Shown in pieces: positions 3,530 to 6,870 of a stretch of 10,527 nucleotides of DNA. The notes beneath the pieces were generated by a model. The model saw only the letters and a list, made by a program, of their open reading frames with translations. It was not told the DNA's origin and did no database searches. Position 1 is the first letter of the stretch. Every line of letters begins with the position of its first letter. The position numbers and the translations under genes are program-made. The stretch comes from Candidatus Kaiserbacteria bacterium. Its GTDB lineage: Bacteria > Patescibacteriota > Minisyncoccia > Phycocordibacterales > UBA2100. The DNA lies in NCBI GenBank assembly GCA_024654165.1, contig JANLIP010000074.1:1-10527 (forward strand). Reading direction: 5' to 3'.

Positions 3530-4759
3530 TCAGTTCAAGCCTTCGGTTCGGAGCAGGTCTTTCGCCACTCGCTCAACGTCTTTCGCTTTCACTTTGTCTA
3601 TTCCTTTAATTATCTCTTCCAAGGTGCGGATTTTGCCTAAGCTGATGAGCGAGGTGGCGGCGTGGGCGGCGACGGCGTCGCTTGTTTCAAGTGCGAGCGT
3701 CAGCGTGCCCTTGATGTGCGCCTTTGCCTTTTTAAGCTCTGCATCCTTAACTTTCTCATTCTTTATTTTGCGGAACTCGGCGAGGATCGTTGAAACAGCC
3801 TTTTGGAGCTTCCCGTGTTCCACTCCTGCCTGCACTGCGAAGTAGCCGGTGTCGGGATATTTTTCCACCATCGCATGGACGGAATAGGCGAGACCCCGCT
3901 TCTCGCGCACTTCCAAAAACAATCGGCTGGACATGCCCCCGCCCAGTATTGTTGAGAGAACCTCCAAAACGTATTCATCTTTGTGCGCATACGGATACGA
4001 GGGCACGCCAATCATCAACTGCGTCTGGTCGGTTTTCTTTTCCTTGATTGCCACGCGCGGGCTGATTTGCATGGATTCAAACGGAACAAACTTCGGCCCC
4101 GGAGATTTTTTGATTCGCCCGAACGACTTTTTAACCGCACCGAGCACTTTCTGCTCTGCTATCGCGCCCGCCACGCACACCACCGTATTTTCCGGCGTGT
4201 AATGATGCTTCAGGTAGCTTGCAAAATCCTTCCGCATAAACGTGCGGATATTTTCCTTGGGGCCCAGGATTGTTCGGCCCAAAGGATGCTCGCCTCCGAA
4301 AATCAATTCATCAAATACATTATCAATTGTGCGCATCGGCATGTCTTCATACATATCTATCTCTTGAATGATTGCTCCGCGTTCTTTTGCTATTTCCTTG
4401 CCGGGCAGGGTGGAGTTGAGGAATATGTCGCTGATGACATCCAACGCCGTGTCCAAGTAGCGACTGCCCACCTTTGCATAATATGCAGTCCTGTCTTTTG
4501 CCGTAAAAGCGTTGTAGACGCTTCCTATCGCATCCAACTCTTCGCTTATCAATCTCGCGCTCGGGCGCTTCTTCGTCCCCTTGAAAAACATGTGCTCCAA
4601 GAAATGCGCGAGCCCGTTCTCTTTCTTATCTTCATAGCGCGAGCCCGTGCCTGCCATCACAACGACGGTCGCCGTCTTGGCACCCGCCATCGGCACGAGG
4701 ACGACCCGCAGGCCGTTTTGCAATGTGTGGATGTTGTATTTCACCCCGTTAGAAGCCAT
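3530..4759 (-). CDS. M16 family zinc metallopeptidase (processing-peptidase-like)
   Basis: This 409-residue protein is a complete single-chain M16B peptidase of the kind related to mitochondrial processing peptidase beta. The inverted zinc motif H52-F-L-E55-H56 is intact and E133 (in I-I-Q-E-I-D-M-Y-E-D) is the third ligand, so the N-terminal domain should be catalytic. The C-terminal domain carries the family's G-G-G-M-S-S-R-L-F stretch (273-281) followed by R288-G-L-A-Y292, whose Arg and Tyr help position substrate. There is no signal peptide, so it probably acts in the cytosol on peptides or small unfolded proteins. It is divergent from alaS and convergent with the hypothetical gene at 3039. 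Its first codons lie inside one arm of a 13-bp inverted repeat. No Shine-Dalgarno sequence precedes the ATG. Confidence 0.93.
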   Translation of the reverse strand: MASNGVKYNIHTLQNGLRVVLVPMAGAKTATVVVMAGTGSRYEDKKENGLAHFLEHMFFKGTKKRPSARLISEELDAIGSVYNAFTAKDRTAYYAKVGSRYLDTALDVISDIFLNSTLPGKEIAKERGAIIQEIDMYEDMPMRTIDNVFDELIFGGEHPLGRTILGPKENIRTFMRKDFASYLKHHYTPENTVVCVAGAIAEQKVLGAVKKSFGRIKKSPGPKFVPFESMQISPRVAIKEKKTDQTQLMIGVPSYPYAHKDEYVLEVLSTILGGGMSSRLFLEVREKRGLAYSVHAMVEKYPDTGYFAVQAGVEHGKLQKAVSTILAEFRKIKNEKVKDAELKKAKAHIKGTLTLALETSDAVAAHAATSLISLGKIRTLEEIIKGIDKVKAKDVERVAKDLLRTEGLN

Positions 4760-4822
4760 AAGCTTTGAGTAATGATTTATAAGATAGATTTTGTAAGATA
4801 TTTCCCGAAGCTTCTAACGGGG
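4744..4822. repeat. 13-bp inverted repeat spanning the protease start
   Basis: CCCCGTTAGAAGC (4744-4756) and GCTTCTAACGGGG (4810-4822) are perfect reverse complements separated by 53 bases. The left arm is codons 2-6 of the minus-strand protease gene, the right arm is upstream non-coding DNA, and the protease start codon and likely promoter lie in between. In a transcript starting upstream of 4822 the arms could pair and tie up the start region. It could also be a trace of a local inverted duplication. Confidence 0.6.
4776..4781 (-). promoter_or_regulatory. Possible -10 box for the M16 protease gene
   Basis: On the minus strand TATAAA reads from 4781 to 4776, ending 16 bases before the ATG. 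Transcription would start near 4769 and give a leader of about 10 bases. No -35 is recognisable, and the region is AT-rich, so chance matches are likely. Confidence 0.3.
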
Positions 4823-4873
4823 CGAGTTGTCGGCCAATACTATCGTCTTATAGCAATTGAGGCAATTTATTCT

Positions 4874-4919
4874 CCAGAGTGACCATTAGTGTACATATGT
4901 ACACTAATGGTCACTCTGG
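4874..4919. repeat. Perfect 46-bp palindrome between divergent genes
   Basis: The 46 bases from CCAGAGTGACC to GGTCACTCTGG are identical to their own reverse complement, with no spacer and no mismatch. The centre is TGTACATATGTACA with the CATATG axis between 4896 and 4897. It lies 115 bases upstream of the protease start and 39 bases upstream of the alaS -35-like element. It can extrude as a cruciform or form a very stable hairpin if transcribed. It does not look like a terminator, because it lies upstream of both genes and lacks a T-run. Operator, recombination or resolution site, and mobile-element end are all open; an assembly inversion artefact cannot be excluded from sequence alone. Confidence 0.9.
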
Positions 4920-4995: not shown

Positions 4996-6870
4996 ATGGA
5001 TATCAGCGAGATTCGCACCAAATATCTGGAATTCTTTGAAAAGCGCGGGCACATTCCCATTCCTTCGGCGCCGATAATTCCCGAGAACGACCCGACGACG
5101 CTTTTCACGGGAAGCGGAATGCAACCGCTTATTCCATATCTCTTGGGCAAGAAACACGCCATGGGAGACCGGCTCGTGAATTCGCAGACATGCTTCCGTG
5201 CGATGGATATAGACGAGGTGGGGGACAACCGCCACACAACCTTTTTTGAAATGCTCGGTAATTGGTCGCTTGGAGACTATTTTAAGCGCGAGCAATTGCC
5301 GTGGCTTTTTGAATTCCTGACTAAAGAAATCGGGATTCCCAAAGAGCGTTTATGGGTGACTTGTTTTGAGGGCGATGAAAAACTCAATCTCCCGCGCGAC
5401 AATGAATCAGCGGAAATTTGGAAAGAGCTTGGCATACCGCAAGAGCGGATTCGTTTCTACGGCTCCAAGAAGAATTGGTGGAGTCGGGCTGGCGAGCCCG
5501 AAAATATGCCGGAGGGCGAGCCGGGAGGGCCGGATTCGGAAGTATTTTATGATTTCGGAACTCCGCATGACGCGAAATTCGGAGCGGAATGCCACCCGAA
5601 CTGCGAGTGCGGGCGGTTCTTGGAAATCGGGAACTCCGTTTTCATGCAGTACATCTCGGCCCAAGGCCGATCCGCCTCGGGCGGAAAGCAGACGGTTTTT
5701 AATCTTCTCCCCAAACAAAACGTGGATTTCGGCGGGGGATTGGAGAGGATAGCGGCGGCAAAGAATGACAATCCGGATATCTTTCGGACGGACGTTTTTG
5801 AGGAAACAATATCTCTTTTGGAGCATTATTCCGACGGAAAATCGTATGACGACAGCAGATACACAAGAAGCTTCCGCATCATTGCCGACCATATCCGTGC
5901 GGCGGCATTTATGATTGCGGACGGCGTGAGGCCTTCCAACACCGACCGCGGGTACATCTTGCGCCGGCTCATCCGCCGCGCTTCCCAGCACGCGATAGCT
6001 CTCGGGTGCGCGCAGGGACAGGAGAAAGAGAACGAGCTCGTGCGATGCGCCATTATCGTGATTGAAAAATATAAGGGGTGGTACACGAAACTGGACGGAG
6101 AGGAAGTCTACGAAACCATCTCGCGCGAAATCTGGCAGGAAGAAAAACAATTTGCTCACACATTGGAACAGGGAACCAAGGAATTTGAGAAAATGACGAC
6201 CGATAATATTTCAGGCGAGCAGGCTTTTATGCTTTTCACCACGTACGGATTCCCGATTGAAATGACTCTGGAGATGGCAGAGGCGAAAGGTAAATCTGTT
6301 GACGAGAACGGGTTCAGGGCACTCATGGAGAAACATAAGGATATGTCGCGCGCGGGCTCGGAGCGGAAATTCAAGGGAGGGCTTGCCGACACTTCCGAGG
6401 CCACCACGCGCCTCCACACCGCTCACCACCTATTATTGAAAGCACTGCAAATCGTACTCGGCCCGCAAGTAAAACAGCGGGGGAGCAACATAACAAGCGA
6501 ACGCCTGCGCATAGACTTTTCGCATGGAGAAAAAATGAGGCCCGAAGAAATCAAAGAGGTTGAAAGAATAGTGAACGAAAAAATCCAAGAAGCGTTGCCC
6601 GTTATATGTTCGGCGATTCCGAAAAGCGAAGCGGAGAAACTGGGGGCACAGCAAGAATTCGGCGCCAAATATCCCGACATGGTTTCCGTTTATTCCGTCG
6701 GACCGAAAGGCGCGACAAAAGAAAACCCGCAATTTGAGAAAGCATTTTCCATAGAATTCTGCGGCGGGCCTCATGTGGAAAATACCAAAGAGCTCGGTAG
6801 TACGTTCAAAATCCTCAAAGAAGAAGCTGTTGCCTCCGGCATAAGGCGCATCAAGGCAGTACTCATGTGA
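4996..6870 (+). CDS. alaS: Alanyl-tRNA synthetase, short form without C-Ala domain
   Basis: This 624-residue class II synthetase charges tRNA-Ala. Motif 2 is seen around R68 through H80-T-T-F-F-E-M-L-G-N-W-S (80-91), and motif 3 is D-F-G-G-G-L-E-R-I (244-252). The tRNA-recognition helices follow (R-G-Y-I-L-R-R-L-I-R-R, 318-328). The editing domain is complete, with zinc ligands H474/H478 (H-T-A-H-H) and C589/H593 (C-G-G-P-H), so mischarged Ser- or Gly-tRNA should be hydrolysed in cis. The protein stops soon after it; the dimerising coiled coil and C-Ala domain of the roughly 875-residue E. coli enzyme are missing. The stretch that in E. coli carries G-P-C-G-P-C-S-E is here G-E-P-G-G-P-D-S-E, and a C-H-P-N-C-E-C cluster (199-205) occurs slightly later, which may hold metal. 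The stop is genuine: the next gene follows with its own promoter, and no C-Ala-coding frame remains downstream. Confidence 0.97.
   Translation: MDISEIRTKYLEFFEKRGHIPIPSAPIIPENDPTTLFTGSGMQPLIPYLLGKKHAMGDRLVNSQTCFRAMDIDEVGDNRHTTFFEMLGNWSLGDYFKREQLPWLFEFLTKEIGIPKERLWVTCFEGDEKLNLPRDNESAEIWKELGIPQERIRFYGSKKNWWSRAGEPENMPEGEPGGPDSEVFYDFGTPHDAKFGAECHPNCECGRFLEIGNSVFMQYISAQGRSASGGKQTVFNLLPKQNVDFGGGLERIAAAKNDNPDIFRTDVFEETISLLEHYSDGKSYDDSRYTRSFRIIADHIRAAAFMIADGVRPSNTDRGYILRRLIRRASQHAIALGCAQGQEKENELVRCAIIVIEKYKGWYTKLDGEEVYETISREIWQEEKQFAHTLEQGTKEFEKMTTDNISGEQAFMLFTTYGFPIEMTLEMAEAKGKSVDENGFRALMEKHKDMSRAGSERKFKGGLADTSEATTRLHTAHHLLLKALQIVLGPQVKQRGSNITSERLRIDFSHGEKMRPEEIKEVERIVNEKIQEALPVICSAIPKSEAEKLGAQQEFGAKYPDMVSVYSVGPKGATKENPQFEKAFSIEFCGGPHVENTKELGSTFKILKEEAVASGIRRIKAVLM

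Follow-up and report, generated by a model that had tools for sequence, protein, structure and literature searches.

A perfect 46-bp palindrome in the window (the whole stretch of 10,527 nucleotides that was analysed) is almost certainly a solo member of a lineage-specific family of palindromes with a cognate gene that family members bracket in related genomes. The family probably spreads as mobile DNA, and on balance we favour a reading of the window palindrome as the orphan of a REP/RAYT-like mobile palindrome system that has an unrelated winged-helix/Cas2-fold protein as its agent. Among the origins proposed in the initial annotation, a mobile element's footprint is the best fit, as relatives carry dispersed palindromes of this kind, which bracket a small gene there.

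The window palindrome and its family

An inverted-repeat search found two arms of 23 nt, 100% complementary and meeting with a 0-nt spacer, in a 236-bp gap between divergent M16 peptidase and alaS genes (Table 1). The initial description of a spacer-less palindrome between a protease gene and alaS was thus accurate, Pfam matches confirming both neighbours. It is the sole palindrome with an arm score of at least 12 in a scan of the 10.5-kb window, and base composition predicts 1.4 × 10−10 perfect 46-bp palindromes there, so that it is not a product of chance. In single-stranded form the region has a folding energy of −23.7 kcal/mol (z = −10.8), a value equalled by 0 of 200 shuffles. Neither a second copy of the 23-base half-site, with up to three mismatches allowed, nor a close cognate gene was found in the window's own assembly (616 kb, 135 contigs, 87% complete), where the sole homolog of the bracketed PaaX-like protein has 24% identity and is accompanied by other palindromes. 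A second inverted repeat, CCCCGTTAGAAGC ... GCTTCTAACGGGG (4741–4756 and 4810–4825), lies across the start codon of the peptidase. Similar sequence is present in G003, in G075 (again at the start of this peptidase), and in G013 (next to smc). An ORF at 107–931 of the window encodes an ATP-cone and an Mrr-type restriction endonuclease domain.

Table 1. Features at the palindrome locus (positions in the window).
Feature	Position	Strand	Remarks
Perfect 46-bp palindrome	4874..4919	.	Solo copy of the TGTACATATGTACA family
Left arm, 23 nt	4874..4896		
Right arm, 23 nt	4897..4919		
14-bp core TGTACATATGTACA	4890..4903	.	
30-bp inner part ACCATTAGTGTACATATGTACACTAATGGT	4882..4911	.	Whole also in G013 (left bracketing palindrome of the element) and in three palindromes of G071
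M16 peptidase gene	3530..4759	-	Left neighbour (Pfam); host gene, outside the element
alaS	4996..6870	+	Right neighbour (Pfam); host gene, outside the element

When 60 relatives were searched at the DNA level with the intergenic region, related palindromes were recovered in G023, G013, and G030, two of those in G013 flanking one ORF. Across 52 genomes of the genus, the 14-bp core retrieved 29 palindromic sites in 11 genomes, with one to six exact-core sites per positive genome, and a reversed control pattern retrieved none; the core is invariant across the family because members were found by searching with it. Perfect arms of 18–24 nt are present at 15 of the 29 sites, the others having mismatches nearer the centre, and solo copies (21 of 29) outnumber bracketing ones. 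Two solos in G062 have a common imperfect 34-nt unit at loci without other tblastx similarity. Core sites occur in six of seven genomes with a close cognate gene versus five of 45 others (Fisher p = 1.4 × 10−4), a comparison for which the gene cut-off was set after the homolog counts had been seen and in which bracketing copies were counted.

Among 30 alaS loci fetched, four carry such a palindrome within 420 bp upstream (G000, which is the window's own genome, G023, G071, and G072), G033 has a GC-rich hairpin, and 25, in a set that is not all syntenic, have none at the threshold used. The palindromes of the alaS/peptidase gap are centred on the TGTACATATGTACA core in G000 and G023, on GCGGCCGC in G071, and on CGACCG in G072; because these centres differ, unrelated palindromes evidently occupy this gap in close relatives. 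The initial annotation had also raised the possibility of a spurious inverted join confined to this metagenome assembly. The window is indeed one of the 135 contigs of a draft genome, and one fetched contig (L072; G014:C26) folds back on itself over 124 bp near its end, around a palindrome, and this is probably an artefact that the repeats caused in assembly. However, the two sides of the window palindrome have different flanks, the same gap in G023 holds a palindrome that shares its core but differs in its arms, and the 29 core sites come from 11 separate genomes of the 52, which together make an artefact very unlikely and leave such a join with a negligible probability.

Palindromes with a spacer of 0–2 nt number 66 in 369 kb of G072 (17.9 per 100 kb), 50 in 350 kb of G071 and G023 (14.3 per 100 kb), and 11 in 400 kb of G027, a genome without a PaaX-like match in which we found Y1 matches, one of them beside a palindrome, and one distant wHTH match; no palindromes arose in a single mononucleotide shuffle of each of the three. 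They measure about 26–48 bp and were mostly called intergenic, with 29 of 127 inside crudely called ORFs. When all families are pooled, intergenic palindromes with a spacer of 0 or 2 nt fall into 41 codirectional, 18 convergent, and 15 divergent gaps, and these classes follow intergenic length without a preference for promoters (chi-square p = 0.34, on crude ORF calls). Flanking direct repeats of at least 3 nt, as a sign of target-site duplication, were found at three of 127 palindromes. Exact 11-mers TTCTAACGGGG, on either strand, occur seven times in the 369 kb of G072, seven times in the 350 kb of G071 and G023, and not at all in the 400 kb of G027.

The bracketed gene and its protein

In several relatives the element consists of a gene between two palindrome copies, in a unit of about 600 bp, and in many elements the left palindrome lies at the gene start. 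Palindromes are present on both sides of the gene in 16 of 41 homolog loci of the genus, or in 15 once L072 is dropped, after which 29 of 40 loci have at least one. The best 80 of 413 confirmed relatives' loci (at least 13 of the 80 contigs being shared with the 41 genus loci) include 35 with a palindrome on the left, 46 on the right, 29 on both sides, counted without requiring equal sequences (L212 pairs two unlike palindromes), and 28 with none at the threshold used. The flanks of the same loci, with 16 palindromes in 291 kb, predict 0.026 and 0.010 per window searched. A wider draw of 50 loci (47 distinct), selected by place and, across the phylum, by Pfam family, gave 22 with at least one palindrome, six with both, of which one pairs unlike palindromes, and 28 with none; the outer parts of these loci hold 10 palindromes in 60.6 kb, or ~0.13 per side searched. 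Left and right palindromes agree at 0.93 (best-arm score) within 15 elements versus 0.48 between elements (0 of 5000 permutations), and protein similarity correlates with palindrome similarity (Mantel 0.51, 0 of 2000), a correlation that shared descent alone would also give.

The cognate ORF encodes a protein of ~190 aa with an N-terminal winged helix and a C-terminal PaaX_M/Cas2-like ferredoxin-fold domain. The bracketed ORF of G013 matches PF20803 (PaaX_M, Cas2-like domain) at 2e-18, and the seven proteins scanned pass the gathering score of this family (58.5–81.2 bits vs. 24). One protein compared with the TIGR02277 PaaX equivalog missed its cut-off (29.5 vs. 264.55 bits), and six of the seven scanned are below the cut-off for Cas2 (PF09827; L011 scores 16.4 vs. 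23.8), which L022 passes (26.3). A Pfam scan of the seven cognate proteins with E values up to 10 and HMMER filters on returned PaaX_M and HTH families and no Y1_Tnp. An AlphaFold2 model (pLDDT 84.8) has winged-helix-like and ferredoxin-like parts; its top Foldseek match, and the sole one below 0.001, is E. coli PaaX (E = 1.2e-4), followed by Rv0674, VapD, and Cas2 above 0.001. G85, F114, D115, R124, G135, Q140, and S142 are invariant in 41 sequences. In the alignment the FDIP motif corresponds to FDMP of Cas2, and D115 (41/41), a putative catalytic residue, to the catalytic Asp after strand 1 of Cas2.

Homologs occur in 39 of the 52 genus genomes, with up to 14 per genome, and of 286 Patescibacteria genomes sampled 90 have PF20803 matches; where sources name the family they use "hypothetical protein" or "repressor-type". 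Cas1 was found in only two of the 52. The dN/dS of 0.06–0.15 in five pairs, with dS high in all and a sixth pair saturated, indicates purifying selection on the PaaX-like gene. Its dN is above that of its smc and rnc neighbours (0.08 vs. 0.03 for G013/G071), and relative to G013, identity drops from 95 to 86% for the smc neighbours and, over the same comparisons, from 86 to 41% for the PaaX-like proteins. The gene lies between rnc and smc in six of 30 fetched rnc loci (G013, G071, G072, G016, G026, and G009) and, by coordinates, in G005 and G062 as well, whereas little separates the two genes in G065 and G007; 25 of the 30 loci yielded smc. In G000 the rnc match (G000:C117:1–174) runs into the edge of its contig. 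As the best-matching gene copies share this one orthologous slot, they look long-resident rather than hopping. Genus members have at most 81% nucleotide identity at the alaS locus and are too diverged to provide a clean empty-site pair with exact ends.

Symmetry, persistence, and a proposed mechanism

In an alignment of the 29 sites, covariation between the arms is 0.471 versus 0.141 when shuffled and at most 0.099 when slid. Cells changed on both sides number 131 versus 53.6 when shuffled, and in 14 of the 15 pairs that vary both sides have changed. The outer arms vary between copies yet stay largely self-complementary: at 18, 19, and 20 nt from the dyad, 72, 62, and 48% are self-complementary, while agreement within the same genome is 39, 39, and 18%. 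Overall, sites are more similar within genomes (0.71) than between them (0.51; 0 of 2000 permutations). Where G071 and G072 carry an element in the same location, its right palindrome has compensated changes and its left a one-sided change. Pairing of the outer arms is what fold-back copying or quasi-palindrome repair would predict, and what a binding motif alone would not.

Long perfect palindromes are usually considered unstable in bacteria, and SbcCD cleaves them. None of the 52 genus genomes has SbcD over the cut-off, and three have weak partial matches; among 14 control genomes 13 match and eight of these are over the cut-off, which means that a strongly diverged SbcD could escape detection. 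A lack of SbcD could explain the tolerance of perfect palindromes, which are common where SbcD went undetected, as the densities in G072 and in G071 and G023 illustrate.

We infer that the palindromes move. The presence of the gene at the rnc–smc slot in some genomes and its absence in others, the imperfect unit common to the two G062 solos, and the several copies per genome speak for movement; the long residence at the rnc slot and the want of an exact empty site speak against it. In the mechanism we propose, the PaaX-like protein would bind the palindrome as a symmetric dimer across the dyad, or bind its hairpin in single-stranded DNA, and would cleave and copy or move it into intergenic DNA, with or without the gene and without duplicating the target. 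Solo palindromes would then represent scars or miniature derivatives. Each copy may keep its symmetry under sequence drift through fold-back copying or quasi-palindrome repair, and perfect palindromes would persist through the lack of SbcCD. A bolder proposal, which we offer tentatively, is a new class of minimal mobile DNA in Patescibacteria in which a single winged-helix/Cas2-fold nuclease gene is bracketed by perfect palindromes that its product cuts and copies as hairpins, with solos seeded across the genome, a non-CRISPR Cas2-fold protein having reached the REP/RAYT lifestyle independently and the absence of SbcCD being permissive. A literature search found no description of such a system.

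Known systems and rival explanations

For RAYT/REP, the literature describes a gene between two palindromes, dispersed cognate palindromes, protein–palindrome coevolution, and orthologous copies that keep palindromicity through point changes (PMC2817692, PMC3733652), as well as RAYT genes that evolve faster than their neighbours (PMC2817692). These features have counterparts here, bracketing in 29 of 80 loci and not in all, and the PaaX-like gene outpaces smc and rnc much as RAYT genes are reported to outpace their neighbours (PMC2817692). In contrast to RAYT, the protein joins a winged helix to a Cas2-like domain and has no Y1 HUH tyrosine transposase match. The palindrome centre is 0–2 nt, with no unpaired GTAG/CGTC head noticed in the 29 aligned sites, positive genomes hold one to six exact-core sites rather than the >100 copies of REP, and there is no gap-class preference. 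Despite the likeness in its working, we do not class the system as REP/RAYT because its protein has no match to the Y1 transposase that defines that group. The PaaX repressor (TIGR02277; PDB 8a39) likewise has a winged helix followed by a Cas2-like domain and is the top structural match, but the proteins here are shorter (~190 vs. ~300 aa), multi-copy, palindrome-bracketed, and far below the TIGR02277 cut-off. Cas2 and VapD nucleases resemble them in the ferredoxin-like domain, in FDMP (Cas2) for FDIP, and in the invariant Asp; the winged-helix fusion, the scarcity of Cas1 (two of 52 genomes), and scores below the Cas2 Pfam cut-off in six of seven proteins set them apart. Unlike classical DDE insertion sequences, the palindromes show no target-site duplication (3/127). 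Rickettsia palindromic elements and MITEs are also small dispersed palindromic insertions without a gene of their own, but at about 100–150 bp, and often inside genes, they differ from the shorter, mostly intergenic palindromes described here.

An operator, one of the candidates of the initial annotation, survives as a rival, although the pooled palindromes lack the promoter preference that might have gone with it. The protein would be a PaaX-type repressor, its bracketing palindromes would loop and silence their own gene, and the solos would be its regulon, a scheme we regard as rather unlikely. The nearest structure is a repressor, E. coli PaaX, and many elements have the left palindrome at the gene start, but a similar palindrome also lies 3′ of the gene in 46 of 80 loci. 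Sites track the protein, and solos are common to orthologous gaps at alaS (G000 and G023), at one G023/G072 locus, and in a dnaK–dnaJ-like gap (named by eye) with a site in G071 and an imperfect copy in G023; yet the alaS gap has other palindrome families in G071 and G072, pooled gap classes fit intergenic length (p = 0.34) with two of 21 solo core sites convergent, and outer arms are self-complementary where same-genome copies disagree. Genes of other kinds are bracketed as well: the sampled contigs contain 13 pairs of like palindromes no more than 1.6 kb apart, of which three enclose a PaaX-like gene, three an ArsR-like winged-helix gene, one a HicB-like ORF (Pfam below cut-off), and six either other ORFs or none that is clear. 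A 93-aa winged-helix protein (HTH_27/ArsR-like) without a Cas2 domain occurs in 33 of 52 genomes, with up to 11 per genome, and like palindromes were seen by eye on both sides of its gene in eight of 30 fetched loci, including L293 in the window's own genome. Because this gene is bracketed likewise, the Cas2 domain cannot be the general mobiliser, and the 93-aa system is the strongest point for an operator or for a trans-acting mobiliser. The palindromes that bracket it are TTTTGCAAAA-centred at L124:16830–17256, L278, L281, L284–L286, L290, L293, and L295. At L154:11389–11791 a HicB-like ORF lies between near-identical 38–40-bp palindromes with starts 365 bp apart, and another copy is found at L158:3981 in G071.

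A mobiliser acting in trans could be a resident Y1 (RAYT/IS200-like) transposase, with the PaaX-like gene as a passenger between two copies. The search for transposase genes suggested by the initial annotation did find Y1_Tnp, in 45 of 52 genus genomes, and the missing target duplication suits single-strand transposition. One G072 Y1 gene lies between two related palindromes (C56:72660 and 73386), other Y1 genes have palindromes nearby, and a 46-bp palindrome of another family, present in two identical copies in G072, adjoins a Y1 gene with one of them, a pair that favours palindrome mobility rather than the PaaX-like protein. The core palindrome, however, tracks the PaaX-like protein; none of 12 palindromes within 1 kb of seven Y1 loci is of the TGTACATATGTACA type, seven of the 12 having 3–5-nt spacers; and G013, only 69% complete, has the element and no Y1 match, so that we hold mobilisation by Y1 to be quite improbable. 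The Y1 matches at G072:C56:72660–73410 and G072:C63:108035–108788 lie beside palindromes of their own, mostly with 3–5-nt spacers, as apparent RAYT/REP-like pairs. The telomere-resolvase-like target of the initial annotation found no backing, ResT-TelK_cat (PF16684) matching none of the 52 genus genomes in a search that matched only one of 14 control genomes. An unlikely origin, finally, is a solo scar, in which a gene-bearing element once stood at alaS/peptidase and was lost by recombination between its palindromes, as in solo LTRs, the palindrome having no mobility of its own. The two palindromes of an element are alike enough to serve as direct repeats and G023 has a same-family solo in the same gap, but no gene is kept there in G000, G023, G071, or G072 (gap sequences judged by eye), solos exceed bracketing copies, and the two G062 solos with one common imperfection suit copying.

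If the window palindrome is indeed an orphan of a mobile palindrome system with a winged-helix/Cas2-fold agent, a Cas2-fold protein would drive a mobile palindrome outside CRISPR or give it its specificity, with implications for the origin of Cas2, and the PF20803-type gene family, so far "hypothetical" or "repressor-type", would gain a testable role.
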